Shown piece by piece: positions 469 to 18,708 of a DNA stretch of 64,000 nt (position 1 is the stretch's first letter; each line of letters begins with the position of its first letter). Both the position numbers and the translations under genes were made by a program. The DNA comes from Tenacibaculum sp. Bg11-29. GTDB taxonomy: Bacteria > Bacteroidota > Bacteroidia > Flavobacteriales > Flavobacteriaceae. The DNA is taken from assembly GCF_002836595.1 (NCBI RefSeq), contig NZ_PJBB01000003.1, positions 4,314,501 through 4,378,500 of the forward strand, given 5' to 3'. The notes beneath the pieces are model-generated. The model had not been told where the DNA came from and did not search any database. It saw only the letters and a program-made list of their open reading frames with translations.

Positions 469-1509
469 TTATTTCTTACTTATTATATCTGCTAAATAGC
501 TGGCATCTTTAGATACGCCACCCAAGGTTGCAGAGCCTCTAGTAAACATCCATGGTAAACCAATAAAATATAAACCTTCAATATTACTTACACCTCTGTA
601 GTTTTTAGGATAGCTATTTTCATCTAATTCTAAACCTTCAATCCATTTAAAATTTGGGCGGTACCCTGTTGACCAAATAATATTTTTTATTGAAGATACT
701 TTACTCTTCTCAAATGTAATGTCATTATTTAATGCATCTTTTGTTCTACCTACACAAATCACATTTTTTCTAGAAAGAATTTCTTTAACATCAGTTCCAA
801 TAACTGGCTGTGAAAAAGAACTAATTTTTTTTCCTATCCAACTATATTTACTATAACTTAAAAACCCTATTATTGTAAACCACCACCATAATGTTTTACC
901 TAAAAATTGCTGAGGTAATGATTTAACAGTAGTATCTCCAGAAAAATAAACTTTTCTAGAAGTATCTTTAGATATTTCATTTAAAATTTGATATCCAGAA
1001 TCTCCGCCTCCTACAACCAATGCATCACCTTCTTTTAGTTGGGCAGCACTTTTATAGTAATTACTATGCATTTGAAGTATACCCTCTGATATTTTAGTAT
1101 GACAAGGAGGTGTATATGGAATATGAAAAGGACCTGTAGCAATAATTACATTTTTGGCTTCAACCTCCCCCTCTTTGTAAGTTACATGAAAACCTTTTTC
1201 TGTTTTACGTACCGATGTAACTAAGGTATTTAACTGCACAGGAATACTGTTTTTTTCCACATACGTTTTAAAATAATCACTAACTTCAAATTTAGTTGGA
1301 TAATGTCCTTTTGGAGCATCAAACTTTAAACCTGGTAAATGATTATACTCTGTTGGTGTGAATAGCTTTAAAGAATCCCATCGATTTAACCAAGAAGCTC
1401 CAATTTCTTTTTCTCCATCTAGAACTAAAAAGTCCTTATCCATCTTTTTTAAATGGTAAGCCATAGATAATCCTGCTTGTGCTCCTCCAATTATTATATA
1501 ATCTAACAT
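469..1509 (-). CDS. Flavin-containing monooxygenase-like NAD(P)/FAD oxidoreductase
   Basis: This 346-residue protein has an FAD-binding dinucleotide fold at the N-terminus (GGAQAG, residues 8-13) and a second NAD(P)-binding motif (GGGDSG, 167-172). Between them is an HSNYY segment (148-152), which resembles the H-S-x-x-Y part of the FMO fingerprint. The domain order FAD fold, linker, NADPH fold fits CzcO/YUCCA-like monooxygenases, which oxygenate small N-, S- or carbonyl-containing substrates. The substrate cannot be told from sequence. It is cytosolic, with no signal peptide. It is divergent from the SDR gene at 1711, with a candidate promoter at 1534-1541, and is probably cotranscribed with the ctlX-like gene. 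Confidence 0.85.
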   Translation of the reverse strand: MLDYIIIGGAQAGLSMAYHLKKMDKDFLVLDGEKEIGASWLNRWDSLKLFTPTEYNHLPGLKFDAPKGHYPTKFEVSDYFKTYVEKNSIPVQLNTLVTSVRKTEKGFHVTYKEGEVEAKNVIIATGPFHIPYTPPCHTKISEGILQMHSNYYKSAAQLKEGDALVVGGGDSGYQILNEISKDTSRKVYFSGDTTVKSLPQQFLGKTLWWWFTIIGFLSYSKYSWIGKKISSFSQPVIGTDVKEILSRKNVICVGRTKDALNNDITFEKSKVSSIKNIIWSTGYRPNFKWIEGLELDENSYPKNYRGVSNIEGLYFIGLPWMFTRGSATLGGVSKDASYLADIISKK

Positions 1510-1533
1510 TTAGCCTCTTTATTATTACTTTTT

Positions 1534-1541
1534 CAAAGGTA
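1534..1541 (-). promoter_or_regulatory. Candidate -7 box for the flavin monooxygenase gene
   Basis: On the minus strand this reads TACCTTTG, a match to the Bacteroidota -7 consensus TAnnTTTG, about 25 bases upstream of the start codon. No good -33 TTTG is seen at 19-21 bases, so the call is tentative. The rest of the 200-base divergent region (1510-1710) shows nothing else clear. Confidence 0.4.
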
Positions 1542-1710
1542 AAACTATAAGATCTTAGTTATTCAGTATAATTGTAATATTTATTATAAAAACCTCATTT
1601 CTTAGAATACTTTAAAAATTAGATACCTATTTACTACTAAATAGTATTTTACTTTTAATAATTTTATTGCTTGAAAAAAAATAATATTTTTAATATAAAA
1701 TCATATAGAA

Positions 1711-2427
1711 ATGGAAAATTTATCTGGCAAAAAAGCTATAATTACAGGAGGTAGTAGAGGTTTAGGAAAAGCTACTGCAATTGCTTTTGCTAAACAAGGA
1801 ATAGATGTTGCTATTACTGGGCGAAACGAAGAACGTTTACGTAGTACTGTTACAGAATTAAAAACATACGGTGTACAAGCTACTTATGCTATTTTTGATG
1901 TTAGTAACTACGACCAAGTTAAAAAAGGGATACATGATATCATAACTACATTTGGTACTGTTGACATCTTAGTAAACAATGCTGGTATTGCTGCTTTTGG
2001 CACTTTTAACGACATGAAAGTAGAAGACTGGACTCGGATTATACAAACTAACTTAATGGGAATGTATTACGTTACCAAAGAGGTTTTACCTTATTTAATT
2101 GAAAAAAATGAAGGTGATATTATTAATATTTCTTCTACTGCTGGTTTAAGTGGTAATGCAACTACCTCAGCTTATTCTGCTTCAAAATTTGCAGTAATGG
2201 GTATGTCTGAATCATTAATGAAAGAGGTTCGTAAAAACAATATTAGAGTTTGTACGCTTACTCCGAGTACTATCGCTTCAGATATGTCTTTAGAATTAGG
2301 AATTACAGATGGTAATCCTGAAAAAGTATTACAGCCTGATGATTTTGCCGAATTAATTGTAGCTGGTTTAAATTTACCTAGAAGAGCTATGCTTAAAGGT
2401 GCCTCTTTATGGTCTACCAATCCATAA
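1711..2427 (+). CDS. Short-chain dehydrogenase/reductase (FabG-like)
   Basis: This 238-residue protein is a classical SDR: TGGSRGLG cofactor loop (residues 12-19), NNAG (89-92), catalytic Ser at about 141-142 and the Y155-x3-K159 pair in AYSASK. The family uses NAD(P)H to reduce or oxidise carbonyl/hydroxyl groups. The sequence is similar to 3-oxoacyl-ACP reductases, but no fatty-acid genes are nearby, so the true substrate is open. An Arg in the loop after TGG and TGRNEER after the second strand suggest NADPH preference. It is a single-gene unit that ends at a bidirectional terminator shared with the retron operon. Confidence 0.9.
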   Translation: MENLSGKKAIITGGSRGLGKATAIAFAKQGIDVAITGRNEERLRSTVTELKTYGVQATYAIFDVSNYDQVKKGIHDIITTFGTVDILVNNAGIAAFGTFNDMKVEDWTRIIQTNLMGMYYVTKEVLPYLIEKNEGDIINISSTAGLSGNATTSAYSASKFAVMGMSESLMKEVRKNNIRVCTLTPSTIASDMSLELGITDGNPEKVLQPDDFAELIVAGLNLPRRAMLKGASLWSTNP

Positions 2428-2434
2428 ATATTAT

Positions 2435-2484
2435 AACGATGCCTTTCCCTTTTTTATTAGTAAGGGGGAAACGCATCGTTTTTA
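2435..2484. terminator. Bidirectional hairpin terminator between the SDR gene and the retron RT
   Basis: An inverted repeat with outer arms AACGATGC and GCATCGTT and inner CTTTCCC/GGGGGAAA-type pairing lies between two convergent genes, with a T-run on the plus side and A/T-rich DNA on the other. It can end transcription from both sides. It marks the 3' end of the retron operon. Confidence 0.8.
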
Positions 2485-2488
2485 ATTA

Positions 2489-3994
2489 TTATTTTTTAAA
2501 GAAAGAAACTATTTTTTTAAAGAAGCTAGATACTTTGTGTTCATTTGTAGCTTCAGTACTATTACTTGCATATTTTGCTGCATGATTCTCTTTATAAGAA
2601 TGCGCTTTTAAGATTTCTCCTACTTGACTTTTATACTTAGCCCCCTTTATCTTATCTACTTGATAAATATAATTTGCATAACCATCAATTTCAGCCAATA
2701 CATTAAGCCCTCCATTCCATGTTTTTCCTTGTATTCCTTCTTTTTCTATTTGAAACAATAAAGCTCTAAAACGTTTTAATGATTTCTTATTTATATTCAG
2801 TTTTTCATTAACTACAATACCTGTTACCTCTTGCCTTTCATTACGTTTCATAATTCGTAACTTATCAGGGTGTAACTTAAAATTTTCTTCTGTAATAATT
2901 TTTTTAGAATATTTTAATATCGCTGTAATATGTTTAAACTGTTCTTGATTTCCTGAAAAAGTAGTATCATCTACATAACGAGAATACATAAAACCATATT
3001 TAGTAGCCAAACCATCTAATCGATAATCCATTTTACTACATAAAATATTTGTTATCGCCGGACTACATGGAGATCCTTGTGGTAAAAATCGATCGCCTCT
3101 TTGTGTAAAATAATTTTCACCTAATAAAGAAAGGTCTAAAATTTTAGATTCGGAACATAATAATGAAAAGATCACTGCTAATTGCTCTGAATATCCTAGT
3201 GATTTAAAAACTCCTTTTATTCTTTTATAAGTTACTGATGGAAAAAAGTTTTGTAAATCTTGATTAATAACTACCGCTTTATTTACATGAGTTTCAGCAT
3301 TACTAACAATAGATCGTTCTTTTACACAACCATGCGCCTTTTTGTGAACCGTTACTTTATTTAAAATATTTTCTAAAATAAAGTGTTGTGCTCTTTTTAA
3401 TCGAGGCATTGGAGCTGAAATTAATCGGTATCCTCCCGATTTCTTTGCTACTTTAAATCGTTTGTAATGATGAATCTTTGAATTTTTTCTAGAAAAGGCT
3501 AAAAATCGGAGTTCATTCACCGTTATTTTCATAGCTTCAGCTAACTCTTTTGCTGACTCATAAACTGGTAAATCGTTTTCTTTAAGTCTTGCAACGTTCG
3601 TTTCAGTATCATTTAATTGATGAGAATATCCATCACCTATATAAACAATCTCTTCTTTTTTTGTTTGCTGCCACTTTGCTGCTTTTTCCTTACGGATTAA
3701 CGCTCTCTTTAACGCAGTTTCTTTTTGTTTCTCTTTAGATAACTTCTTTCTTTCTTTATGCTTATTTGCAATAAAAGCTTCTGTATCTTCTATAGATTTC
3801 TCTTTTTTAACAAGTGCTGTTAAATTACTTGAAAGCTCTCTTTCTTCTTTTAAAAATGCATTTGCTTTTTCGAAATCTACTTCATTATCACCCCAAAAAC
3901 CTAATCGTTTCATTTCTGAAAGAATAAATTCATCTTTAGATGATTCTTTAATTTTATCGTAAATTTCTTGTCTTCTCGTAGCTGAATTATCCAT
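2489..3994 (-). CDS. Retron reverse transcriptase
   Basis: The RT uses the msr-msd RNA next to it as template and primer to make msDNA. In a 501-residue protein from the ATG at 3994, the retron-specific NAxxH motif is NAETH (232-236). RT motif A is QDLQNFFPS (catalytic Asp 246), then PQGSPCSPAITN (from 305), the catalytic YVDD (340-343) and the retron region-Y signature VTG (390-392). Residues about 35-110 are a highly charged Lys/Glu-rich extension, probably coiled coil, before the RT core; this is longer than in short retron RTs. A further in-frame start, TTG at 4042, would lie inside the msd region and upstream of the a2 arm, so ATG 3994, ten bases after a2, is preferred. It is last in the operon with the WGR/HEAT and SWIM genes. 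Confidence 0.95.
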   Translation of the reverse strand: MDNSATRRQEIYDKIKESSKDEFILSEMKRLGFWGDNEVDFEKANAFLKEERELSSNLTALVKKEKSIEDTEAFIANKHKERKKLSKEKQKETALKRALIRKEKAAKWQQTKKEEIVYIGDGYSHQLNDTETNVARLKENDLPVYESAKELAEAMKITVNELRFLAFSRKNSKIHHYKRFKVAKKSGGYRLISAPMPRLKRAQHFILENILNKVTVHKKAHGCVKERSIVSNAETHVNKAVVINQDLQNFFPSVTYKRIKGVFKSLGYSEQLAVIFSLLCSESKILDLSLLGENYFTQRGDRFLPQGSPCSPAITNILCSKMDYRLDGLATKYGFMYSRYVDDTTFSGNQEQFKHITAILKYSKKIITEENFKLHPDKLRIMKRNERQEVTGIVVNEKLNINKKSLKRFRALLFQIEKEGIQGKTWNGGLNVLAEIDGYANYIYQVDKIKGAKYKSQVGEILKAHSYKENHAAKYASNSTEATNEHKVSSFFKKIVSFFKK

Positions 3995-4004
3995 AACAAA
4001 AAAA

Positions 4005-4235
4005 GGTAGCAATAAGATGTATGTTTTTTTCCCTTCGTACAATTCTAAAGACTGAATTGAACAACTCCAGTGAAATAGGTACTAGTGTACTGTTTCACTT
4101 CGAAGAAGTATAACCGGAAACGGTACACTAGTACCTATTTCACAAGTTAAGTTCGAGTCAGTGACGCGTTCGGTGTCTGTAAGCTAGATTGGCGATACAC
4201 CAATCAAATTGCAAGGTTTTTATCTTATTACTACC
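4005..4235 (-). ncRNA. Retron msr-msd non-coding RNA
   Basis: About 231 nt between the SWIM gene stop and the RT start fold as a retron RNA. The a1 arm (4222-4235) pairs with the a2 arm (4005-4018) over 14 bp with one G-U. Inside lies an msr stem-loop (4187-4192 with 4200-4205, 7-nt loop). The msd hairpin has a perfect 21-bp stem (4070-4090 with 4123-4143), continuing after one mismatch for 5 bp (4092-4096 with 4117-4121). The 20-nt tip can itself fold (4097-4101 with 4105-4109). The lower part is extended by short helices (4063-4066/4145-4148, 4059-4062/4151-4154, 4050-4053/4156-4159). A G at 4212, just after a1, is a candidate branch guanosine. The msDNA would be plus-strand sense. Exact msr/msd borders are inferred. 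Confidence 0.9.
4070..4143 (-). repeat. Long inverted repeat forming the msd stem
   Basis: Positions 4070-4090 and 4123-4143 are perfect reverse complements (21 bp), with a 32-base loop that adds five more pairs after one T/G position. This pairing is T-G in the plus-strand msDNA and A-C in the RNA. The repeat is the core of the msd element. Confidence 0.95.
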
Positions 4236-4253
4236 AAGGTTTAAATATATTAA

Positions 4254-5882
4254 TTATTTTTTATCAAAAGTGATTCTTGTTGCTAAAATATGCTCACAAG
4301 GTCCTTTTGTCATTTTATTTTGATGATAATAACTGCAAGTACACTTAGCATCAACGATTTGAAAATCATTGTTAATATGTACACTTGTTCTATAACTATC
4401 ACTCACTACGGCATATATCTTTATAACATTACTATCATTTTCTATTTCTAACTCCGAAACAGCTCCTGACTCCATTAATTGATACGCTGTTTTATCTATT
4501 TCATTCGAAAAACGTAACGATTCTAAATCAATTCCATCTTTCTTTAATTCTCTAATTCGGTATACGTTGTTTTTTAAATCGTACACTACTTTTCCTGCCT
4601 GTGTAAAAGTTTGTAACGATTGCTGTACAACCGTTTTATCTAAAGCCAAATTCTTGGCTAAACTTTCTTCCGTATTAAACCAATCTTTACGCAACGCTAA
4701 ATAAATACTCTGCATGGTGGTTGCAGGTACTTGCCCTCTTGGAGAAAGCAAATCTAAATTCGTGGTTTTCGTCCAATCATTAGCTGTCCAACCAGACAAT
4801 CCTAATGTAAAATACATATCATTTGCCAAGTGTGCTATATAAAAAGACGGCATACCGCTACCCAATAAATGAACTGTAAACTTATTCGTAATTGGCAATA
4901 GTCTTTCTAAAATAGTTATACGTCTTCTTCCCCAAACTCTAATTTCATGGGCTTCATTACCTTTATATATAGATTTTAAACATGTAATTTCTATATTCCA
5001 AGGTTCAAAAACAGCTACAATAGGTTGCCCAGGTTTTAATATATATTTTATAGCTCTTGGCCCTTTTTTTTCTTTGTATCTTTTTAATACAGTTATAAAA
5101 TTAGCGATATCAACAGCATCTAAATCAAATGATACTTTATCACTTGTCATAGCTGTACTTACTTGTAAAAAACCGCGCACCCAACTATCTGGCAAATCAA
5201 TTTTAACTTCTCTATAAATATCTTCTCCTGTTGTTCTTACATCAAAGCCTTTAGGATCTACTTTAAATTCTGTTTCTTTATAACTACGTATCTTTTGAAA
5301 CTCATTATACAATGTTTTTGAATAATCGATATTTGTAGTACCACATTTAAACTCACTTATGTTGTTAAAAACATCATAACCACATGATAATTTTCCATAA
5401 ACAGATTCATCTTTACTAAAACATTCAAAAAATACCTGATCAGGATGTACTGTAATCACCGGATCTAACACTAACCAAGCTGCATAATCTCGTGTGTATA
5501 AATACTTAAAATATTTTCGTTGTGCTTCGTAAAAGGGCTTTGTAACTTCTTCTCTCTTAGAACGTAATTTTTTTAATTGTTCCTGAATATTTTTTACGTC
5601 TGTTTTTACACCAGCTAATGCTGCTGTTGCTTCTGCTACCCAAATATCTTCTTGGCTCTTTAACCAAGCTAAATATTCGGTATTATCTTTAGGTTTAAAA
5701 TTAAAATCAGCTGTAACAACGCTATGTAAGGTTGAAATAGCTTCTCTAAATGGAATCTTTTTATCTAAACTTCCTACAAAATAAGTAGGTTCTCTTAATA
5801 CATCTGGCGCAAAACTAACCCCTGTAGAAGACATACTGTTATTAACACTACTGCTACCACTATATTTAAAATTAAATTTCAT
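4254..5882 (-). CDS. SWIM zinc-finger protein of the retron operon
   Basis: This 542-residue protein ends in a SWIM zinc finger: C514-x-C516-x12-C529-x-H531, the CxCx(n)CxH pattern thought to bind nucleic acid or protein. Residues about 85-125 are charged and helical, possibly coiled coil. The stretch around 400-450 (after SPRGQVPATTMQ) looks like a winged-helix-like region, in line with the WH-SWIM accessory protein I recall for type XIII retrons. There is no signal peptide, so it should be cytosolic. It starts 14 bases after the WGR/HEAT gene and ends 18 bases before the a1 arm of the msr-msd RNA. An effector, or a partner that senses the msDNA-RT complex, is the likely role, by analogy with other tripartite retrons; this is inferred. 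Confidence 0.8.
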   Translation of the reverse strand: MKFNFKYSGSSSVNNSMSSTGVSFAPDVLREPTYFVGSLDKKIPFREAISTLHSVVTADFNFKPKDNTEYLAWLKSQEDIWVAEATAALAGVKTDVKNIQEQLKKLRSKREEVTKPFYEAQRKYFKYLYTRDYAAWLVLDPVITVHPDQVFFECFSKDESVYGKLSCGYDVFNNISEFKCGTTNIDYSKTLYNEFQKIRSYKETEFKVDPKGFDVRTTGEDIYREVKIDLPDSWVRGFLQVSTAMTSDKVSFDLDAVDIANFITVLKRYKEKKGPRAIKYILKPGQPIVAVFEPWNIEITCLKSIYKGNEAHEIRVWGRRRITILERLLPITNKFTVHLLGSGMPSFYIAHLANDMYFTLGLSGWTANDWTKTTNLDLLSPRGQVPATTMQSIYLALRKDWFNTEESLAKNLALDKTVVQQSLQTFTQAGKVVYDLKNNVYRIRELKKDGIDLESLRFSNEIDKTAYQLMESGAVSELEIENDSNVIKIYAVVSDSYRTSVHINNDFQIVDAKCTCSYYHQNKMTKGPCEHILATRITFDKK

Positions 5883-5896
5883 TTTTCTTCTTAACT

Positions 5897-8800
5897 TTAT
5901 TTAATTAATAATGGTATTGCTACATCTGAGTGCTTTTCAGAAATAGTTAATAATATATCTATAATTTTATCTTTATCAGTAACCGTTTTGGTATCTAAAA
6001 TGGTATTTAAAATTCGTACTGTCATTAAAGCTACTTCTTTATATTTTTTAGATTCTTTTTCTAAAAAAGAGTATACTCTGGTCTTTGTAGCTCTATTAGA
6101 GTTAATGTAAAACAAGGTCGTTTTAAAGTAATCTTCTAATTTTAAAATTACCCCTACATTATCTGAAGCATACGTATCTAAGTAATTGGTTGTAAAAAAC
6201 TGCATACTCTTTGCTGGGTGCTCTTGTAAGCTAACGAGTAAAGGCAGTCCTTTTTCTTCTGAAAAATGTTTTACCGCCATACTTCGTCCTAAGTATTGCA
6301 CTTGCTCTTTTACATGATCACATACATATAATAACATTTGTACAGTCCAATTTTTGGCATCTATATGTTCACTAAAATAATCACATCCCCAGTCAATAAC
6401 ATCTTGCCAATTGGTATTAAAAATAGGCAATGCTTCTTCTAATTCGTAATTTACCCTAGCTACGTTATTTTTAAAGTAAGTTTGTAATCCTGTTCTTATA
6501 GAAAACACATCACTGTGAGCTAAACGTATTAAATCTGACATACTTAGAGCACTCATGCTTATGCTACTTTCAAAAATCGGAGTTCCTAGCTTTTGTGCAA
6601 ATTCATATTTTGATAGCACTAATGTTATTATTCCTTCTTTTGATAACTCTTTTAAATCAGCTCCGTATAACTGTATTAAAGTTTCATAACAGTTCTCATG
6701 CAAGCCTTCATAATTTTCATCTTCTGTTATATATGCTAATAATTGTTTTAATAAGCCATCCTTAAACTCGCTATCTAATTTTGTTAATCTATCAACCGTA
6801 GGTCGAATTGCCTTCCTTACTTCAGAGTATTCAGAAAAACAAAAACTAACGATATCTTGTTTATTTTCTATTAAATATTTATCAGGAAAGTGTGTTAAAA
6901 GTTCAATACCTGCACTTCTTAACACTTCTTCTTCTGACGTTATATATTCTTTATAATTTTCTTTAAATAAATCATAAGCAGGCGTAGCGTTATGTTTCGC
7001 TAAGTTGATTGCGAATAATTTATTTGTTACAGAATTTGAAGCTGCTAATTCCACGATTACTTTAACAGGAGTACCACTCAATAATTTACCAAATAAAGTA
7101 TTTCCTATTAAATAATTTACTGCTATTAGAAAATCGAGCGAGTAATTAGACGACTCTTTAAATAATTCTTGCAAATAATCTATTGATAAAATAGTATTAT
7201 AAGCTATACTTTTTTGATATACATCTCTTAAATAATCTATTACTAAAACCTCATCAGTAAGTAATAGTTTTGTAACCAAAGAACTACTTATTAAATAAGA
7301 AGTCTTGTATTTCTTTAACCAATTTAAACCTAATTCGACTGCTTTATCATTTTTAGATGATAACAATGTTATTAAAATAGTTTCTTCTGGTTGACTTGTT
7401 GCATATTTTTCTTCTAACAATGCTGTTACTAAATCTAATACCTTTGGATGTTTATGAGCTAGTAATTTTGAAAATATTTCGTCAGATAGGTTTTCTAAAA
7501 AGTGAGAGTTATCTTTTATTATACGTAAACAAAAATCTACTGCAATTGTACTTTTAGCATTTGCTAGTATGTATAATACTTCAGTTGGTTTTTTATTCCA
7601 AACACTAGACAACATTTCTTCTCTTACAACTTCGTTAGTTGTACTTTCTATATAATACCATTTATTCTTTTGCTCTTTAAACCTACTTGAGCTACCATAT
7701 AAAATATACATTAAAGCAGAAAATTGATGGTATTTAGGATAACACTTCTTTTCTACATCGTAATTTCTTGTTGCGGGATTATATACATAATCATGCTCTA
7801 CACTCTCTGTTACCTGATCTTCATCATCATCTAAAACACATAGTATTTCAGTGGCATATTGAATATAGGTTTCTTGATTTTCAACACTTAAGTTATATAT
7901 ATATTTATAACTATTTTTAGTAAAGTAATCTTTTGTTTTACCAGAAAAAGCTATTCCTGGATTTTGTTTTTTCTTTTCTTCAAAAGCATAAACCCATTCT
8001 CCTTTTACACTTGGGTAATCAGAAGTATAACCTGCTTTACCAATTGCTATTTGTTTAGATAGTAGCGCAAAAAAATGTGTATCATTTATTATGCAAGCCG
8101 CTCTATATATATAACGTATAGATTTAAATGTGTTTACTTTTAAAGGAACTTTTTCTAATAATTTAAATAATTCATCCCTTAAAGTATCATTATCATACGC
8201 ATATAAATATGCATAAAATAAGAACATTGGGTTTTCTTTGTTCTTTCCTAAAAACTGTAAAGCTAAAGGTGTTATTTCTTCTTCAGAAATGTGTTTAGCA
8301 ACCTCGGCATGTACTATTTGTTTATCCTTAGCACTTCCATATCTTAATATATAAGCACAAGCTACTCTACCTACAATTGTTTTTAGGTGATGGTTTTTAA
8401 AAACCTTTAGAATTTCTGCTACGTAATTAGATTGGTTAAATTCTGCTAATACAGTAATTGTATTGTACTGCTCAAATTCATCTAAAGAATGGATAAATTG
8501 AGCTATTTGTGGTATTGCTTCTCTAATTTTTAAAACGCCTACTCTTGCAATAATTTTAGATACTTTCCAATTTCTTGTATAGGTACCTTTTATTGCTTGC
8601 GCTAAGTATTTTAAAATTGTTTCTTTTCTTGCAGTGTTTTCGTCTTTATGTAAACTTTCGTCTACTTTAATCGACTCTTGTAAGATTTCTGAATACCCTT
8701 TCTTCTCCTTGCTTTCCACTAAGCTATTAAAAGTTTTTTGAGCTTCTTCATAAGATACAGGAAAAACTGTTTTTGTTCCTTCTCTTAAATTTGCACCTCT

Positions 8801-8917
8801 TCTACCGTACCTAAAGTTTACAACAAATAAATCTTGACTCTCGCATAAATCTACTTCATAAACTTTGTCTGATTTTTCGTCTGAAAAATATAATTTTTTC
8901 TGTTTAATTAATTTCAA
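5897..8917 (-). CDS. WGR-domain and HEAT/ARM-repeat protein of the retron operon
   Basis: This 1006-residue protein opens with a WGR domain (about residues 1-80, core FRYGRRG at 35-41, with Tyr in place of Trp), a fold found in PARPs and MolR-like proteins and thought to bind nucleic acid. The remainder is a long alpha-helical solenoid with HEAT/ARM-like repeats. There are no membrane segments. The start codon is TTG: the only nearby upstream in-frame ATG (8924-8926) is followed at once by a stop. It is first in the retron operon and sits 82 bases after thiF. By analogy with other retrons it may be the toxic effector or a scaffold holding RT-msDNA; the sequence shows no catalytic motif. Confidence 0.85.
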   Translation of the reverse strand: MKLIKQKKLYFSDEKSDKVYEVDLCESQDLFVVNFRYGRRGANLREGTKTVFPVSYEEAQKTFNSLVESKEKKGYSEILQESIKVDESLHKDENTARKETILKYLAQAIKGTYTRNWKVSKIIARVGVLKIREAIPQIAQFIHSLDEFEQYNTITVLAEFNQSNYVAEILKVFKNHHLKTIVGRVACAYILRYGSAKDKQIVHAEVAKHISEEEITPLALQFLGKNKENPMFLFYAYLYAYDNDTLRDELFKLLEKVPLKVNTFKSIRYIYRAACIINDTHFFALLSKQIAIGKAGYTSDYPSVKGEWVYAFEEKKKQNPGIAFSGKTKDYFTKNSYKYIYNLSVENQETYIQYATEILCVLDDDEDQVTESVEHDYVYNPATRNYDVEKKCYPKYHQFSALMYILYGSSSRFKEQKNKWYYIESTTNEVVREEMLSSVWNKKPTEVLYILANAKSTIAVDFCLRIIKDNSHFLENLSDEIFSKLLAHKHPKVLDLVTALLEEKYATSQPEETILITLLSSKNDKAVELGLNWLKKYKTSYLISSSLVTKLLLTDEVLVIDYLRDVYQKSIAYNTILSIDYLQELFKESSNYSLDFLIAVNYLIGNTLFGKLLSGTPVKVIVELAASNSVTNKLFAINLAKHNATPAYDLFKENYKEYITSEEEVLRSAGIELLTHFPDKYLIENKQDIVSFCFSEYSEVRKAIRPTVDRLTKLDSEFKDGLLKQLLAYITEDENYEGLHENCYETLIQLYGADLKELSKEGIITLVLSKYEFAQKLGTPIFESSISMSALSMSDLIRLAHSDVFSIRTGLQTYFKNNVARVNYELEEALPIFNTNWQDVIDWGCDYFSEHIDAKNWTVQMLLYVCDHVKEQVQYLGRSMAVKHFSEEKGLPLLVSLQEHPAKSMQFFTTNYLDTYASDNVGVILKLEDYFKTTLFYINSNRATKTRVYSFLEKESKKYKEVALMTVRILNTILDTKTVTDKDKIIDILLTISEKHSDVAIPLLIK

Positions 8918-8999
8918 GCTTTACATTTTTTTACACTCTAAATATATAACTTATTTAGAACAAGATAAATTTCTTTATATATCTTTTATAAAAAAATAA
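8918..8999 (-). other. thiF-retron intergenic region without a clear terminator or promoter
   Basis: The 82 bases between thiF and the retron operon are A/T-only in long runs. A 7-bp hairpin is visible (arms CTAAATA and TATTTAG near 8940-8960), but it has no GC-rich stem or T-run of a terminator. No TAnnTTTG box is seen on the minus strand. Read-through from the thiamine operon is therefore possible. Confidence 0.4.
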
Positions 9000-10055
9000 T
9001 TACATGAAACCTCCTTTTAAGTTTACAAAACTCATACCTAAATTTTCATCTTCTAAAAACGCTATCGCCCTTTTACTTCGCATACCTGATTTACAATACA
9101 CTACAAGTGGTTTATCTGTTTTTAACTCTTTAAAACGTTGTGGTAATTCTCCTAATGGAATATGTTGTCCGTTAATATAATTTTGTTCACGTTCCCAATT
9201 TTCACGTACGTCTAATAAATTATACTTAGCTATATTATTTTGTAATTCATCTAAAGTAATTTCATTTTCAATAGTATGTATTCCACAGAAAAAGTCGTAA
9301 TCTTTTTCTAATTCAGTGATCTCTATATTTGCTGATTTTTCAAATTTTAATAGCATTTGACGCATACTTAAAGTATCATACATCAATAGTATATTTGCTA
9401 ACACCTCACCTATTTCTAAAATAATTTTAATCGTTTCGTTTGCTTGTAAACTTCCTATAATTCCTGGTAACACACCTAAAACACCAATTTGTGAACAGTT
9501 TGGTGATTCATCTGGTTTTGGTGGTGTTGGATATAAACATCTGTACGTAGCGCTTCCTTTATAATTAAAAACACTTACTTGTCCTTCAAATTTAAAGATT
9601 GCACCATACACCAATGGTTTGTTTGTTATTACCGCAGCATCATTTGTTAAGTATCTTGTGGAAAAGTTATCACTTCCATCTACAATTACATCATATTTAT
9701 TGAATAATGAAATGGCATTTTCTCTCGTCAATTTTTCTTTATAAACAGAAAAATTCACAAAGGGATTTAATTTTGATAAGCGTTTTGCTGCTGTTTCAGC
9801 TTTAGAAAAACCAATATCATCAATTCTGTATAAAATTTGACGTTGTAAATTACTTTGATCAACTACATCATCATCTATAATTCCGATGTTTCCAACACCT
9901 ACTGCTGTTAAATATTGCAATACAGGGCAACCCAATCCGCCAGCTCCTATTACCAAAACCTTCGCTTGTTTTAATTTTAATTGCCCTTTTTCTCCTATTT
10001 TATCTAAAATAAGATGACGGTTGTATTGTTTTTGTTCCTGCGCTGTTAACTTCAT
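9000..10055 (-). CDS. thiF: ThiF/MoeB-type sulfur-carrier adenylyltransferase with rhodanese domain
   Basis: This E1-like enzyme adenylates the C-terminal Gly of ThiS so that it can accept sulfur. The 351-residue protein has the nucleotide fold GAGGLG (37-42), the DDDVVD and SNLQRQ segments typical of MoeB/ThiF, and a C-terminal rhodanese domain (about 255-351) with active-site Cys321 in CKSGMRS, so adenylation and sulfur transfer are fused. The rhodanese domain stops right after GGFM, which is short but near the usual end. As the last gene of the thiamine operon it fits thiF; the alternative is a molybdopterin MoeB/MoeZ, but no moa/moe genes are present. Confidence 0.88.
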   Translation of the reverse strand: MKLTAQEQKQYNRHLILDKIGEKGQLKLKQAKVLVIGAGGLGCPVLQYLTAVGVGNIGIIDDDVVDQSNLQRQILYRIDDIGFSKAETAAKRLSKLNPFVNFSVYKEKLTRENAISLFNKYDVIVDGSDNFSTRYLTNDAAVITNKPLVYGAIFKFEGQVSVFNYKGSATYRCLYPTPPKPDESPNCSQIGVLGVLPGIIGSLQANETIKIILEIGEVLANILLMYDTLSMRQMLLKFEKSANIEITELEKDYDFFCGIHTIENEITLDELQNNIAKYNLLDVRENWEREQNYINGQHIPLGELPQRFKELKTDKPLVVYCKSGMRSKRAIAFLEDENLGMSFVNLKGGFM

Positions 10056-10428: not shown

Positions 10429-11547
10429 TTAATTTTTAAAGGCTTCCCAATCTTTCCAAACAACTTCTAACCCTTGCTCTTTTAGCATTTTCACAACCTC
10501 TTCGGTACTTCGTTCATCAGAAATTTCAAACTGCTCTAACGATTGTGGTTCTACTGAATAACCTCCTGGGTTTGTTTTTGATTCTGCACTGATAGATGTA
10601 GTTCCTAAATTAACAATATTATTTCTAAAAACTTCACTTTCTCTTGTTGACATTGATAATTCTATATCTTCATCAAACAAACGAAATGCACAAATTAATT
10701 GTACTAAATCTGAATCAGTCATTTCTACTTTTGGTTCTAATCCGCCAGAATGTGGTCGTAACCTTGGAAACGAAATAGAATACTTCGTTTTCCAATATGT
10801 TTTTTGTAAATACTTTAAATGTAATGCTGTAAAAAAACTATCGGCACGCCAATCTTCTAATCCGAATAAAGCACCTAAACCTATTTTATGAATTCCTGCT
10901 TTTCCTAATCTATCTGGCGTATCTAAACGATAATTAAAATTAGATTTTTTTCCCTTTGGATGATGTTTCTTATACGCTGCTCTATGATACGTTTCTTGAT
11001 ATACCAACACCGCATACAATCCTGCATCAATTAACGATTCATATTCATCCTGATCTAAAGGTTGCACTTCAATCGTAATATTTGAAAATTGAGAACGAAT
11101 TAATTGAATAGCATTTTTTATATAAGAAACTCCTACAGTTTTATTCGCTTCACCTGTAACTAACAATATATGGTCATAGCCTTTTTCTTTTAAAAAAGCG
11201 ACTTCTTTTAAAATTTCTGGATCAGTTAACGTACGTCTAGGTATTTTATTAGTCATACTAAAACCACAGTATGTACAAATATTCTGACATTCGTTACTTA
11301 AATACATTGGCGCATACATTTGTATGGTATTTCCAAATCGTTTTTTAGTAAGTAAACTACTCTTCTGTGCCATTTGCTCGATGTACGGACGTGCAGCTGG
11401 AGATATTAAGGCTTTAAAATCTTCTAAATCAAGTTTATCTTTTGATAAAGCATGTTCTACCTCAACGGTTGTTTTATGAAAGATGCTTTTTAAAGTATCT
11501 TCCCAATTATAAGTATCGAATGTTGTTTTAAAATTTTGTTTTACCAC
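10429..11547 (-). CDS. thiH: 2-iminoacetate synthase ThiH
   Basis: A radical SAM enzyme that cleaves tyrosine to dehydroglycine (2-iminoacetate) and p-cresol for thiazole synthesis under low-oxygen conditions. The 372-residue protein has the 4Fe-4S motif C87-x3-C91-x2-C94, followed by GFSMTNKIPR, as expected of ThiH. The length is typical. It follows thiG in the operon with a 109-base gap that holds a palindromic repeat. Having ThiH rather than the glycine oxidase ThiO indicates the tyrosine-dependent route. Confidence 0.95.
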   Translation of the reverse strand: MVKQNFKTTFDTYNWEDTLKSIFHKTTVEVEHALSKDKLDLEDFKALISPAARPYIEQMAQKSSLLTKKRFGNTIQMYAPMYLSNECQNICTYCGFSMTNKIPRRTLTDPEILKEVAFLKEKGYDHILLVTGEANKTVGVSYIKNAIQLIRSQFSNITIEVQPLDQDEYESLIDAGLYAVLVYQETYHRAAYKKHHPKGKKSNFNYRLDTPDRLGKAGIHKIGLGALFGLEDWRADSFFTALHLKYLQKTYWKTKYSISFPRLRPHSGGLEPKVEMTDSDLVQLICAFRLFDEDIELSMSTRESEVFRNNIVNLGTTSISAESKTNPGGYSVEPQSLEQFEISDERSTEEVVKMLKEQGLEVVWKDWEAFKN

Positions 11548-11656: not shown

Positions 11657-12427
11657 TTAATTCAGAAACGACGTTAACGGACTGCTTGCTTCAGCTTGCT
11701 GCCTTATTGGAGCTAATTTTGCTTCATAAGCCATTCTACCTGCTTCTACCGCCATTTTAAACGCCTTTGCCATTGCTACTGGGTTTTTAGATACTGCAAT
11801 CGCCGTATTTACCAACACCGCATCTGCTCCCAATTCCATTGCGTATGCTGCATGTGATGGTGCTCCAATACCTGCATCGACAATTACAGGAACATTAGAC
11901 TGTTCGATAATTATTTCTAAAAAATCTTGTGTTTTTAAGCCTTTATTACTTCCTATCGGTGCACCTAATGGCATTACGCATTGTGTTCCTACCTCTTCTA
12001 AACGCTTACATAAAACAGGATCGGCATGAATATAAGGCATTACTATAAATCCTAATTTCACCAATTCTTCTGCCGCTTTTAATGTTTCAATAGCGTCAGG
12101 TAATAAATACCTAGGATCGGGATGTATTTCTAATTTCACCCAATTTGTTTCTAACGCTTCTCTAGATAATTCTGCTGCAAAAACCGCTTCTTTTGCCGTT
12201 CTAACTCCAGATGTATTGGGTAATAAATTAATATGAGCATGATTTAAATGCCCTAAAATATCATCTTCTTTATTTTGAACATCTACTCTTTTTAAAGCAA
12301 CAGTTACCAATTCGCTTTCAGAAGCTAACAATGCTTCTTTCATCAAGATTGAAGAACTAAATTTCCCTGTTCCTGTGAATAAACGTGATGTAAATTCTTT
12401 ATCTGCTATTTTTAAATACTGATTCAT
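11657..12427 (-). CDS. thiG: Thiazole synthase ThiG
   Basis: ThiG condenses 1-deoxy-xylulose 5-phosphate, dehydroglycine and sulfur from thiocarboxylated ThiS into the thiazole phosphate. The 256-residue TIM-barrel has the Schiff-base lysine in WVKLEIHPD (K98) and the phosphate-binding GAPIGSNKG and [11 protein letters not shown] segments. Length and motifs are normal. It is in the operon between thiE and thiH. Confidence 0.96.
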
Positions 12428-12486
12428 CTTATTTCTTATTAGGTTGATCGTAGTTGAGACCTTTTTATAATTTTTTTAAAATAAAA

Positions 12487-12512
12487 ATCGCTCGACTGCG
12501 CTCGAAGAGACA
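12487..12512. repeat. Short dispersed repeat CTCGACTGCGCTCGA family, copy 1
   Basis: This thiE-thiG gap element reads CTCGACTGCGCTCGAAGAGACA-like, with the self-complementary core CGACTGCGCTCG-like. Related copies are at 13941 (same orientation) and 14803 (opposite orientation), all between thi genes. Confidence 0.65.
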
Positions 12513-12519
12513 TATAAAA

Positions 12520-13167
12520 CTACTTGTCATCCATTTTATACACTTGCTCTTGCATACTTGGAGCACTTAAAATTTTATGAAAAACAGGAATACTTGTAAA
12601 ATCATTTGTTATTGCTCCTGATACTGCTACACCATAAACACCAGCATGTACAATTCCTGCAACATCATCTAAAGTAATACCACCAATGGCTATTATTGGA
12701 GTTTCTGTTTCTAACTCTTCAACTATTTTCTTGTATCCTTCAACTCCTAAAACAGGACTTAAATTCTTTTTAGTTTCTGTGAATTGAAAAGGGCCTAAAC
12801 CAATGTAATCAACTTTTTTATCAAGTAATTTTTTACAATCTTCTAACGTATTTGCTGTTCCACCAATTGAATAAAACTTACCCAAATAATCGCGAACTTT
12901 TAACGGACATGCATCTTTTTCTCCTAAATGAACACCATCTGCTTTTACTTCTTTAGCAACTTTATAGTAATCGTTTATAATTAATCGCGTTTGAAAATGC
13001 ATTGTTATTTCTCTCGCTTGCTTTGCTGTTTCTAAAATCGTTTTAGGATCAAAACCTTTTAAACGAAGTTGCACCCATTCCGCTCCAGATGCACAAGAAT
13101 TTTGTATATTATCTAAATGCTCTTGAGCCGTTTTGCCTTGTGTTATATACTGTAATTTACTTATCAT
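12520..13167 (-). CDS. thiE: Thiamine phosphate synthase ThiE
   Basis: ThiE joins HMP pyrophosphate with thiazole phosphate to make thiamine phosphate. The 215-residue TIM-barrel shows QLRLK (33-37), RLIINDYY (from 61), DGVHLGE (77-83) and the GLGPFQFTETK phosphate/PPi loop, all typical of functional ThiE. It overlaps closely with thiD upstream (1 base between) and so is translationally linked. A second ThiE-like protein is coded at 14057; this copy has the better catalytic motifs. Confidence 0.93.
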   Translation of the reverse strand: MISKLQYITQGKTAQEHLDNIQNSCASGAEWVQLRLKGFDPKTILETAKQAREITMHFQTRLIINDYYKVAKEVKADGVHLGEKDACPLKVRDYLGKFYSIGGTANTLEDCKKLLDKKVDYIGLGPFQFTETKKNLSPVLGVEGYKKIVEELETETPIIAIGGITLDDVAGIVHAGVYGVAVSGAITNDFTSIPVFHKILSAPSMQEQVYKMDDK

Positions 13168-13168
13168 A

Positions 13169-13924
13169 TTATTTGTAATTATGGGTTCCTAAGAGAGATT
13201 CATTTGAATTTAAAAATTGTTCTGTATACCATTTCGTGTTTTTACAAGCATCTTCTAAAGGAATATCTAGCGCTAAGTTTGCCGCCAATGCCGATGACAA
13301 AACACAACCGCTTCCATGCTTTTCAAAAACAGTTTCAGCGATAGGCGGAATATTCATTTTTACTATTTTACTATAATATACTTCGTCCCATCCTTTTTTA
13401 TCTTCTCTATGACCTCCTTTTAAATAAATATTTGTTCTTTCTGAAATGAACTCAATCGTCTCTTCTATGTTTTTACTAGGAAATAATTCTTGTATTTCGT
13501 TATAATTTGGTGTAATAATAGTACAATTGCATAATACTTTTTCAAATATATTTAGACTTCCATCTTCATGGAAATCAAACCCTGCACTTGCTTTTAAGAT
13601 TGGGTCTAAAACTATTTTTATCTCCGGATTTAACTTTTTTAAAGTTAGAACGACTTCTAATAAAATATCCCAAGATTGAATGATTCCTATTTTTACTACA
13701 GAAATTGAAAAACGTTCAAACAATGTTTCAATCTGAGCTATTATGATTTGTTTATCTATCCAAACACAATCTTTAAATGTAATATCATTTTGAACAGTAA
13801 CGGCGGTACATACTGATAGCCCGTACAAACCATGCGCTTCAAATGTTTTAATATCTGAAGTAATTCCTGCTCCGCTTGATGGGTCTAAACCTGCAATGGT
13901 TAGTATGTAATTTTTATTATTCAA
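13169..13924 (-). CDS. thiD: Hydroxymethylpyrimidine (phosphate) kinase ThiD
   Basis: ThiD phosphorylates HMP and HMP phosphate to give HMP pyrophosphate for ThiE. The 251-residue ribokinase-family protein begins with the AGLDPSSGAG substrate loop (residues 11-20) and carries the catalytic anion-hole motif KHGSGC near the C-terminus. It is separated from the upstream TenI-like gene by 132 bases with two repeat elements. Fusion or separate forms both occur in Bacteroidota; this is the stand-alone form. Confidence 0.95.
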   Translation of the reverse strand: MNNKNYILTIAGLDPSSGAGITSDIKTFEAHGLYGLSVCTAVTVQNDITFKDCVWIDKQIIIAQIETLFERFSISVVKIGIIQSWDILLEVVLTLKKLNPEIKIVLDPILKASAGFDFHEDGSLNIFEKVLCNCTIITPNYNEIQELFPSKNIEETIEFISERTNIYLKGGHREDKKGWDEVYYSKIVKMNIPPIAETVFEKHGSGCVLSSALAANLALDIPLEDACKNTKWYTEQFLNSNESLLGTHNYK

Positions 13925-13940
13925 ATTATTTTTTATTTAG

Positions 13941-13966
13941 TTCTCGACTTCGCTCGAACTGACAGA
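13941..13966. repeat. Short dispersed repeat CTCGACTGCGCTCGA family, copy 2
   Basis: Reads TTCTCGACTTCGCTCGAAC then TGACAG, 15 bases after the thiD start. It is the same family and orientation as the element at 12487. Confidence 0.65.
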
Positions 13967-14011
13967 GCAACAAAATTATTTAATTATACTTTTTTATAAT
14001 AACTTTTTACT

Positions 14012-14086
14012 TGTCATTGCGAATAGCATGAAGCAATCTATTATTCTACTGACAGATTACATCGTCGTTTCCTCCTCGTAATGACG
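14012..14086. repeat. Dispersed palindromic repeat, copy 2, reaching into the TenI-like gene
   Basis: The left half has GTCATTGCGA and AAGCAATCT, and the right half AGATTAC, ATCGTCGTTTCC, CCTCGTAATGACG. It is a close relative of copy 1. The right half overlaps the last ten or so codons of the gene at 14057-14659, so the repeat supplies the stop codon and C-terminal residues. Confidence 0.75.
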
Positions 14087-14659
14087 CTTAATTTTTTTAA
14101 AACTCTCTACAGGGTTTTCGGTATTCCAAACACCTCCTAAAACTCCTATTCCTTCAAAACCTAATTGAATTGTTTCAGCTATAGTTTCGGTGTTAATTCC
14201 TCCCATTCCAACAATTGGTTTATCAATATTTGTTACATCAAACCCTCGTCCTTCATACCCTTCTTTTGAAATAGATGAAAAAACTGGACTTAATAAATGG
14301 TAATCAAACTCAATATCACAAGCTGCTAACTCTTCTGGTTCATGAAAAGAACTACTCATGGTTTTTCCTAACATATTTAGCCCTATAAAATATCTACTTC
14401 CGTTTTCTAAAGCATCTCGCCTTTTTTGTTCTTGAAAATGGATTCCTTTTAAATTGAATTCATTTGTTAACTCATGAAAATAATGAACAACTATTTTAGT
14501 ATGATATTTTTTTTCTATCTGATTTAAATACGAAACATGCGCTTCATAATCTTTAAATGGTTTTCTAAGATGATAATATTGTAACCCTGCTTCAAATAAT
14601 TGGTGCAGAATTACAATTTCATTTTCTACATCTTTTTCTGGGGCAATAAGTACAATCAT
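14057..14659 (-). CDS. TenI/ThiE-like thiamine phosphate synthase paralogue
   Basis: This 200-residue TIM-barrel is a ThiE/TenI homologue: YHLRKP (residues about 29-34), GIHFQE and GMGGI near the end are recognisable. The RLIIND segment of true ThiE is replaced by KIVVHYFHEL and the PPi loop is altered, so it may be a TenI-type thiazole tautomerase instead of a second synthase. TenI aromatises the ThiG product. The C-terminus RHYEEETTM is encoded by a dispersed palindromic repeat and so is probably not conserved. It lies between thiC and thiD with repeat-rich gaps on both sides. Confidence 0.82.
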   Translation of the reverse strand: MIVLIAPEKDVENEIVILHQLFEAGLQYYHLRKPFKDYEAHVSYLNQIEKKYHTKIVVHYFHELTNEFNLKGIHFQEQKRRDALENGSRYFIGLNMLGKTMSSSFHEPEELAACDIEFDYHLLSPVFSSISKEGYEGRGFDVTNIDKPIVGMGGINTETIAETIQLGFEGIGVLGGVWNTENPVESFKKIKRHYEEETTM

Positions 14660-14722
14660 ATTAGTTTGATTTTAGTAACTACTAATTTTCTGTAAAAATA
14701 ATCTAATTTATTATTGAAATGC

Positions 14723-14757
14723 TAGATTACTTCATCGTTTCCTCCTCGTAATGACAG
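14723..14757. repeat. Dispersed palindromic repeat, copy 3 (half element)
   Basis: Only the right half is clear: AGATTACTTCATCGTTTCC then CCTCGTAATGACAG. The left arm in the bases before it is degenerate. Confidence 0.65.
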
Positions 14758-14802
14758 ATGTTTTTTTCGGGTTAGGGATTGTAGTGGCATCCTTTTTTAT
14801 TG

Positions 14803-14829
14803 TCACCTTGAGCGAAGTCGAAAGGTTAA
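14803..14829. repeat. Short dispersed repeat CTCGACTGCGCTCGA family, copy 3, inverted
   Basis: Reads TGTCACCTTGAGCGAAGTCG then AAAGG, the reverse complement type of the elements at 12487 and 13941. It lies between thiC and the TenI-like gene. Confidence 0.65.
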
Positions 14830-14860
14830 ACAATAAAAAAGATATAACGAAAAGCACGAC

Positions 14861-14883
14861 TACGCCTTTTTTCAAGGCGTAGG
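14861..14883. other. Hairpin just downstream of thiC
   Basis: Perfect 9-bp arms CTACGCCTT and AAGGCGTAG around a 5-base loop, 15 bases after the thiC stop. There is no following T-run on the minus strand, so it may be an mRNA 3'-end stabiliser or processing site more than a terminator. Confidence 0.6.
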
Positions 14884-14898
14884 AACCTCCTAATTATT

Positions 14899-16993
<2,095 letters not shown>

Positions 16994-17031
16994 ATTTATA
17001 TAATATTACTGTAAACCGAATGGTAGTAACT

Positions 17032-17047
17032 CGATATAATTTTATCG
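17032..17047 (-). promoter_or_regulatory. Candidate expression-platform hairpin of the TPP riboswitch
   Basis: Arms CGATA (17032-17036) and TATCG (17043-17047) lie between the riboswitch aptamer and the thiS start. An alternative TATC-TTC-GATA pairing with the 3' side of the aptamer (17041-17053 region) is possible, so the two could be mutually exclusive. Without a T-run, translational control is more likely than termination. Confidence 0.45.
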
Positions 17048-17052
17048 AAGAT

Positions 17053-17133
17053 AACTTTTCCCTACGCTGGTATTAACCAAATCAGGTTCTAAGGATTTTT
17101 CTCAAACTAATTTAATAGCTACTCCTAAAGTTT
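17053..17133 (-). promoter_or_regulatory. TPP (THI-box) riboswitch
   Basis: On the minus strand the conserved TPP aptamer is plain: the TTGAGA-type element, then ACCTGATTTGG and TAATACCAGCGTAGGGA. P1 pairs AACTTT (17127-17132) with AAAGTT (17053-17058). It is 60 bases before thiS and would shut off the whole thi operon when thiamine pyrophosphate is plentiful. Confidence 0.96.
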
Positions 17134-17139
17134 ACATGA

Positions 17140-17168
17140 CAAATGTATTCTTATTTTTTAAAAAACAA
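17140..17168 (-). promoter_or_regulatory. Promoter of the thiamine operon
   Basis: On the minus strand a -33 TTG (17166-17168) lies 18 bases upstream of TACATTTG (17140-17147), a perfect TAnnTTTG -7 box. Transcription would start almost at the first base of the riboswitch P1 helix. Confidence 0.7.
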
Positions 17169-17690
17169 GTTTTTTATTCTTGTTATTTAATACTCCTTCT
17201 CAATTATCATTCGCTTATACCTAAAAAACAAACAGTTAAAACCTTTTCATAAAAACAACTCTTTTTTTCTTATACTTTTAACATATAAAACACATAAAAG
17301 GTGGAGTAAAAACCACTTGAAAAACGTTTTCTATGAGATAATTTATAGGATACGCTAACCGAAAAGCCTTATGAGTAGGTAAACTAACCAAACTTATTAT
17401 AAATACTAAAACATAAGCAAAAAAGAAACATTTGAAGATGGATTGGCTGCTTACCTCTCTTTAATAGCAGAAAATCATAAAGTATTTAATGGGGCATTAA
17501 ACGGATTGTAGACGTAATTTACACATCAAGTTAAGTATTAATGTAAATTGTATTTGATATAAATTATCGTTTTAAGTGCGTTGCTTCGATACCTCTTTCT
17601 AAGGTTATTTGGTAAGCAATTGTTGATATTTATCAATCTTTATACGGTAGATCTCAAATTAATTACGCTAAATATAATTAGTATAATTAA
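17169..17690. other. Non-coding stretch, possibly a decayed gene
   Basis: About 520 bases between the thi promoter and the arginase terminator hold no intact gene. A short plus-strand reading frame near 17420-17510 (ending FNGALNGL then stop) and fragments near 17600-17680 look protein-like in places but are broken by stops and shifts. I cannot name a parent family. Confidence 0.35.
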
Positions 17691-17691
17691 T

Positions 17692-17730
17692 AAAAGCCTG
17701 TCTTTTTTACTAAAAGGACAGGCTTTGTTT
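17692..17730 (-). terminator. Terminator after the arginase gene
   Basis: Perfect 10-bp stem AAAGCCTGTC (17693-17702) with GACAGGCTTT (17717-17726), A/T-rich flanks, 18 bases beyond the arginase stop. Confidence 0.8.
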
Positions 17731-17748
17731 ATGTAAAAATATTCTTTT

Positions 17749-18708
17749 TTATAACTCTTTAATAGTTTTTGCAACTTGTTGAAGTACGTCAAAAGCTGTT
17801 TCTGCCATTTTATTCCCTTTAAAATCTAATAATGGATTTACTTCTACAAATTCAACACAAACTACTTTTTTACTTTCTAATAGTCCGTTTATAATTTTTA
17901 CAATCTCTTTATCATCAAAACCTTTAGGAACAGGTGTACCTGTACCATAAGAAATCATATCGCAATCCATTGCGTCAACATCAAAAGATACATAAATAAC
18001 ATCACAATCAGATAATTTATCTAATGCTTCGTTAACACAAACTTCTAACCCACGATAACGAACCTCTGCAACCATATAGTTTTTAATACCATACTTTTCC
18101 ATTTGTTTTTCCTCTGGTTCTTCAGTATCTCGAACTCCAAAAAAAACAATATCCTCGGGTAACGCTTTCTGACCTGGAATTCCAATATTTTTCATTCGAT
18201 CCCATAGCTCTGCCGTTTCCCTACTAACATCATTTACCTGACAATCTAAATTATCATCAGCAATGACTGCTCCTAATGGCATTCCGTGAATATTTCCTGA
18301 AGGAGAGGTATAAGGTGTGTGCAAATCTCCATGAGCATCAATCCAAACAACTCCAACTCTTTTTGTTGGGTTTGCTGATTTAACACCACTTATAGTACCT
18401 AAAGCAGATGAATGATCTCCAGAGATAACTATAGGAAATTTACCTTCCTGTAAATTCACCTTTACGTGGTTACTTACTCTTTTACACTGATTAAAAACAC
18501 TTCTTATTTGCTTACCAAACGAATTGTTTTTTTTGTTATAAACAGATTCATTTTCTGTGATAACATCTTCAAACTCAAAACGATTAAAAAAATCGTTATT
18601 TTGATTGATTGCTGCTATTTCAATAGCATCTATCCCCATATCAGAACCACGTGTTCCTGCTCCGATATCTGATCTGTTTTTGATAATTTTAATTTCTTTC
18701 ATCATCAA
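17749..18708 (-). CDS. rocF: Arginase
   Basis: This ureohydrolase of 319 residues hydrolyses arginine to ornithine and urea. The dimanganese site is visible: GDHS (97-100), DAHGD (D124, H126, D128) and SFDVDAMD (D243, D245). The length and the VPKGFDDKEI region fit arginases better than agmatinases or formiminoglutamases. It starts MMMKEIKIIKN; any of the three Met could be used. It is 53 bases downstream of gltA behind a hairpin, and ends at a strong terminator. Confidence 0.88.
   Translation of the reverse strand: MMMKEIKIIKNRSDIGAGTRGSDMGIDAIEIAAINQNNDFFNRFEFEDVITENESVYNKKNNSFGKQIRSVFNQCKRVSNHVKVNLQEGKFPIVISGDHSSALGTISGVKSANPTKRVGVVWIDAHGDLHTPYTSPSGNIHGMPLGAVIADDNLDCQVNDVSRETAELWDRMKNIGIPGQKALPEDIVFFGVRDTEEPEEKQMEKYGIKNYMVAEVRYRGLEVCVNEALDKLSDCDVIYVSFDVDAMDCDMISYGTGTPVPKGFDDKEIVKIINGLLESKKVVCVEFVEVNPLLDFKGNKMAETAFDVLQQVAKTIKEL

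Follow-up and report, generated by a model that had tools for sequence, protein, structure and literature searches.

Near the start of a 64,000-nucleotide stretch of DNA from Tenacibaculum sp. Bg11-29 (contig NZ_PJBB01000003.1, positions 4,314,501-4,378,500), which we analysed at full length and call the window, lies an operon that is almost certainly a complete type XIII retron, an already known kind of system. The source genome is near Tenacibaculum ovolyticum, and the SWIM zinc-finger proteins of the two are 96% identical. In order of transcription the operon holds:

5897..8917, minus strand: gene for a WGR/HEAT-repeat protein of 1006 residues, with a TTG start, a WGR domain at residues 11-78 (Pfam WGR, 27.3 bits) and mostly helices thereafter
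4254..5882, minus strand: gene for a SWIM protein of 542 residues (Pfam SWIM, 25.8 bits), with a predicted PCNA-type clamp, a winged helix and a SWIM zinc finger
4005..4235, minus strand: msr-msd RNA, the non-coding RNA of the retron
2489..3994, minus strand: gene for a retron reverse transcriptase (RT) of 501 residues (Pfam RVT_1), with its ATG at 3994

A preliminary description, made from the sequence, had put four elements in one minus-strand unit, and we place all of them on that strand within 2489..8917; the RT motifs it named (NAETH, YVDD and VTG) are all present in the translation. It had also taken the RT to be of the retron kind and the accessory pair to be that of type XIII (ARM/HEAT and WH-SWIM), and both calls agree with PADLOC, the second as far as the names of its models show. 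The RT scores 592 bits against RT_XIII, with 291 for the next RT model, and the other scores are 971 bits for WGR_XIII, 732 for SWIM_XIII and 65 for HEAT-ARM_XIII; for all three proteins the best models are of type XIII and extend over most of the length. What we call type XIII features are taken from these model names and from general background, and we take the set of RT_XIII, SWIM_XIII, WGR_XIII and HEAT-ARM_XIII to be type XIII of the Mestre et al. retron classification. The operon probably serves in phage defence. Our term searches of the literature found no anti-phage test of type XIII retrons, and their sole match for "type XIII" together with retron was, in the excerpt concerned, a mention of PADLOC in a Variovorax study.

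Two start codons deserve comment. The mechanical list of open reading frames begins the RT at a TTG at 4042, which falls inside the RNA; we corrected the start to the ATG at 3994, which relatives share and which sits 10 nucleotides past the a2 arm of the RNA. The WGR/HEAT gene starts with TTG (8915-8917), as do all 17 flavobacterial-type relatives checked, and the other eight relatives checked all have ATG.

Linkage and distribution

The tie between the accessory genes and a retron RT, which the preliminary description had taken as a point to check, holds in other genomes. When genome contigs were scanned with the SWIM protein, 70 loci emerged, and in 60 of them matches to the WGR, SWIM and RT proteins follow in that order on one strand; contig ends truncate a few of these genes, and in one locus (L066) WGR is matched only by a reading frame of 520 residues. 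Two loci lack WGR, both at a contig start. Eight lack the RT: in seven the contig ends 1-1376 bases past the SWIM gene, and the eighth, L047 from Moorena, has WGR, SWIM and the RNA (10653-10874) with no RT in 9 kilobases. The next gene in L047, on the opposite strand, is of PmbA/TldD type. Because these loci were found through the SWIM protein, they cannot show how often it occurs without a retron. A separate census covered 395 genomes drawn from the phylum independently of SWIM, and in it SWIM_XIII and RT_XIII exceed 500 bits in the same six genomes, close together on one contig each. Two of the six (G321 and G325) have the order RNA, RT, WGR, SWIM, and a third (G316, locus L095) matches WGR only weakly, with a contig end truncating the match. 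The SWIM family as such is large, with at least 5798 matches at E 0.001 among 8000 scored candidates.

Comparison of the site among relatives indicates that the retron segment varies within the genus. In the retron-free genome G003 (L147), only about 0.12 kilobases separate the two genes that border window 1510-8999, one for a 346-residue protein (window 469-1509) and one ThiF-like, and neither the SDR gene nor the retron has a match there; this was seen in one of the four retron-free relatives read, the match of the other three (L148-L150) being limited to thiamine genes. In G008 (L151) the retron stands between SDR and ThiF as it does in the window, and positions in G018 agree, the names of these flanking genes having been assigned by eye. 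Elsewhere in the window, Rfam matches a Flavo-1 RNA (14761-14865, plus strand), a TPP riboswitch (17042-17136, minus strand) and an S4 leader (25117-25149, minus strand).

The msr-msd RNA

The RNA between the SWIM and RT genes has the following parts:

4222..4235, minus strand: a1 arm of the terminal inverted repeat
4187..4205, minus strand: msr hairpin, GATTGG...CCAATC
4051..4162, minus strand: long msd hairpin (inverted repeat I1), putative template of the duplex in the multicopy single-stranded DNA (msDNA)
4005..4018, minus strand: a2 arm of the terminal inverted repeat

The two arms form a repeat of 14 nucleotides, 93% complementary, whose pairing is kept in relatives. Folding of the 241-nucleotide stretch 4020-4260 gives a z-score of -6.6, with none of 200 shuffles equally stable, and across 24 close loci, window included, compensatory changes fall at 20 of the 76 predicted pairs; both fold and covariation support the msr hairpin, and changes of this kind run along the msd stem. 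A covariance model (R1) built from these 24 loci was run on 45 further retron loci and detected the RNA in 44 (in L056 in part), the one without it being L039, whose contig stops 139 bases past SWIM; L036 and L049, whose contigs end at once after SWIM, were left out of the search. The model also found the RNA in L088, L093, L094 and L096, and found it neither in L095 nor in any of the nine RT-less loci described below. Beyond the close flavobacterial set, standard pairs fill 93.0% of the pair cells in 48 copies, against 35-42% when one side is displaced by 1-3 columns, and both sides change at 65 of the 76 pairs, against 39-45 in the displaced versions, which hold fewer cells. The alignment keeps 63 of 79 rows, antisense matches and one partial match having been dropped, and because it was fitted to the model structure it leans towards that structure.

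Some lineages carry the RNA in tandem behind a single SWIM gene: L038 has four copies, L051 three, and L040, L041, L053, L054, L058 and L079 two each. The copies are 46-73% identical to one another in the seven loci compared (for L038, three of its four copies), and a type XIII RT gene lies downstream in seven of the eight loci, the contig of L041 ending first. Five Saprospiraceae loci (L037, L038, L040, L051 and L054) have their SWIM and RT genes 1.1-1.6 kilobases apart, a gap explained by RNAs, of which L037 has one and the other four have two to four. Such arrays suggest that one RT produces several msDNAs. Repeated msr-msd copies with no RT within a kilobase are described, in the excerpted part of a review (PMC6868368), for retron Nex1 (Ne160).

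The accessory proteins and the RT tail

Within the SWIM and RT genes we distinguish:

4785..5783, minus strand: predicted PCNA-type clamp fold, SWIM-protein residues 34-366
5475..5681, minus strand: helical insert in the clamp, residues about 68-136
4548..4730, minus strand: winged-helix-like segment, residues about 385-445
4281..4382, minus strand: SWIM zinc finger, residues 501-534, CxC...GPCxH (Pfam PF04434)
2492..2524, minus strand: basic/aromatic C-terminal tail of the RT, FFKKIVSFFKK

The preliminary description had spoken of two nucleic-acid-binding accessory proteins, which stands as to content and leaves out what is predicted to be most of the SWIM protein, a PCNA-type clamp, a fold known from the ring-like clamps by which cells keep their grip on DNA. 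Its predicted structure contains a two-domain clamp fold at residues 34-366. The insert appears in the secondary structure of the model and coincides with an alignment gap in RT-less relatives (A6); the winged helix was named by eye from the order of three helices and two strands; and the zinc-finger residues C514, C516, C529 and H531 are invariant in all 39 rows. E. coli YehQ was tried as kin of the SWIM protein beyond the zinc finger and rejected (hhalign probability 9%, SWIM region only). The AlphaFold2 model of the WGR/HEAT protein (mean predicted local distance difference test, pLDDT, 87.9) has a small beta domain, the WGR, and is mostly helical after residue 95, like a HEAT solenoid; with this model Foldseek returned large helical-repeat proteins at low template-modelling score. 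Clamps, WGR, SWIM and winged-helix parts are DNA-handling by type. No enzymatic domain rose above cut-off in either accessory protein with Pfam, NCBIfam or PADLOC, and searches of PDB sequences for an enzyme in them found nothing.

Relatives of the pair also occur apart from a retron. Nine census genomes hold shorter SWIM proteins of about 450 residues (G321 has both kinds; a 17.5-bit match in G061 was not counted), and at all nine loci (L083-L087 and L089-L092) the gene immediately upstream has 907-1050 codons, the products being 24-87% identical to the first of them. Pfam finds DUF6493-DUF7824-DUF7825 in the large partners from L083, L090 and L091, and WGR in the first two and not in L091. 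RT-less and retron SWIM proteins can be aligned across 427 columns, the insert showing as a gap (hhalign 99.6%, E 4.9e-25; eight of the nine in the alignment), and the alignment of the large partners is limited to WGR. No match to the window's RT was found in these loci, of which 16-20 kilobases were examined, and a term search of the literature found no paper mentioning DUF6493. Directly after the L090 pair, in the same orientation, come five bpX/bpMoxR genes of MoxR-vWA-beta-propeller systems (2485-9230), and at L088 a bpX cluster (12013-18151) stands right next to a type XIII retron and converges on it; at L083, L084 and L085 the neighbours that were tested show no relation to bpX/bpMoxR genes. 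By a term search, the text of a paper on these systems (PMC7159879) uses none of the words WGR, SWIM, PCNA and clamp.

The RT ends in a tail whose form differs among lineages. Tails were sorted by simple criteria set after they had been seen: a Kyte-Doolittle value of 1.6 over 19 residues for a transmembrane segment, a tryptophan pattern for a Trp tip, and a cut-off of the amphipathic moment. Of 27 flavobacterial type XIII RTs, the window's included, 26 have a short basic amphipathic end, and the 34 other locus RTs divide into 15 with a Trp tip, 11 transmembrane, three amphipathic and five with none of these. In the set of 120 best-matching relatives of a Vibrio RT, a transmembrane-like segment near the end occurs in 99 (100 under another tail definition), seven are amphipathic and 14 have none; among the 120 best relatives of the L055 RT, 113 have a Trp tip (e.g. 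PWWKLW), four are amphipathic, one is transmembrane and two have none. Both sets are best matches, mutually related and partly the same genes as the locus RTs. As controls, 34 other RT reading frames taken from the same phylum as the window, some of which may not belong to retrons, gave one transmembrane, no Trp tip, five amphipathic and 28 none (L005 and L117 are the same gene; L111, with an open end, and L119, with no reading frame, were dropped). On a FastTree phylogeny of 181 RT cores (every second protein from a list of 240, together with 61 locus RTs; good support on 85 of 173 inner branches), the four tail labels require at least 21 changes, and well-supported branches force at least seven for transmembrane, at least seven for amphipathic and at least four for Trp tip. 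Because the forms replace one another and have nothing in common but a probable affinity for membranes, the pattern suggests that the tail is a membrane tether; peptide docking on the clamp is possible.

Possible mechanisms and known systems

Starting from the observed gene content, linkage and RNA fold, and from the clamp as predicted, we propose a mechanism that, as a whole, we rate at somewhat below an even chance. By analogy with other retrons, the RT would make msDNA from the 4005-4235 RNA and keep it bound, and the forms of its C-terminal tail would have the complex held at the inner membrane. The PCNA-like clamp of the SWIM protein would grip the duplex stem of the msDNA, and the WGR/HEAT protein would cap it. 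Phage factors that cut, coat or modify the msDNA would free the clamp/WGR pair, which could then use its clamp, WGR, winged-helix and SWIM surfaces to settle on DNA ends or forks, stopping replication, such that the infection would end along with the cell. We propose an effector that occupies DNA rather than cutting it because the searches recognised no catalytic domain. To our knowledge, known retron effectors are enzymes or membrane proteins, and PCNA-type clamps are not the usual replication clamp of bacteria; a DNA clamp as retron partner would, if true, represent a novel means of guarding or halting DNA replication. We also offer, as a more doubtful conjecture, that type XIII retrons in general are membrane-tethered msDNA complexes holding a bacterial PCNA-type clamp, fused to winged-helix and SWIM domains and partnered by WGR/HEAT, on the msDNA duplex, the clamp pair being an older DNA-binding effector module, found also free of retrons, to which RT and RNA (up to four different RNAs in some lineages) were added as sensor. 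The predicted clamp, the tail pattern and the retron-free sister pair together yield a testable mechanism for type XIII retrons.

Several observations weigh against this proposal. The clamp comes from one prediction (mean pLDDT 76.3, 39 sequences), no clamp was among the four matches at E up to 10 in a profile search of PDB sequences, one of the four supposed inner helices is not basic, and a clamp fold need not form a ring. As for the tether, the window's own tail has no transmembrane-like segment, and the amphipathic criterion it passes is passed in 5 of the 34 controls too; among the 34 non-flavobacterial type XIII RTs five pass no criterion, as do 14 of the 120 in the Vibrio set; the label "none" alone is involved in 11 changes on the tree; and flavobacterial tails can be read as resembling a PCNA-interacting protein (PIP) box. 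Finally, the Moorena locus keeps WGR, SWIM and RNA without an RT, which would be unexpected if the pair were toxic unless held by msDNA.

One might instead suppose that the clamp-like SWIM protein serves the RT as a processivity or docking factor, bound by a PIP-box-like peptide in the RT tail, with the WGR/HEAT protein as effector. The predicted fold would suit such a role, the window's tail reads FxxIxxFF, and a loose PIP-like pattern of our own making occurs in the last 60 residues of 7 of 27 flavobacterial RTs (the window being represented by its copy L003) against 2 of 34 others. Yet this is a minority of tails, non-flavobacterial ones are mostly transmembrane-like or Trp tips, and a related SWIM protein stands without an RT match in the RT-less loci, and we consider such a role unlikely. 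A classic toxin guard, in which RT-msDNA keeps off an unrecognised enzymatic activity of the WGR/HEAT or SWIM protein as in other retron types, also seems improbable to us. The type IX HEPN RNase, which in the excerpted part of its report (PMC13405049) has no canonical motif, illustrates that motif searches can miss an enzyme. Against this stand the domain searches described above, the mostly helical WGR model and a SWIM model made up of clamp, winged helix and zinc finger. A role in host DNA metabolism, such as repair or the monitoring of replication forks, would fit the DNA-handling parts and is very unlikely, given the patchy occurrence of full-length SWIM_XIII (6 of 395 genomes of the phylum), the absence of the segment from one relative and the defensive nature of other retron types in the excerpts we drew on.

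Compared with type XIII retrons as PADLOC models them, the locus has the same gene set beside an RNA, and we see no difference in content; the model names make no mention of a clamp, an RT tail or tandem RNAs. Retron-Nex2 (msDNA Ne144) of Nannocystis exedens may belong here, as an N. exedens RT (UniProt Q8VRM1, P0279), which we infer to be RT-Nex2, scores 620 bits against RT_XIII, with 343 for the next model, and ends in KKGWKLF, a Trp tip; an excerpt of the review cited above (PMC6868368) lists RT-Nex2 among myxococcal RTs with an extended N-terminus. The type IX retron Kva2, as described in the excerpted part of PMC13405049, likewise has an operon of two accessory genes, RNA and RT, and its winged-helix protein cradles the msDNA stem loop; it differs in that its effector is a HEPN RNase, whereas here no nuclease was recognised and the protein with the winged helix also contains a predicted clamp. 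PCNA and other sliding clamps share the predicted fold over residues 34-366 at about 8% identity, and the SWIM protein adds an insert of about 69 residues, a winged helix and a SWIM finger. The RT-less DUF6493-DUF7824-DUF7825 and SWIM pair of Bacteroidota differs in that no RT or RNA was found with it, in having no helical insert and in a larger partner that aligns only over WGR; it shares a related SWIM protein, the gene order and, in L083 and L090, a WGR on the larger partner, and with this sister pair the effector can be studied separately from a retron.
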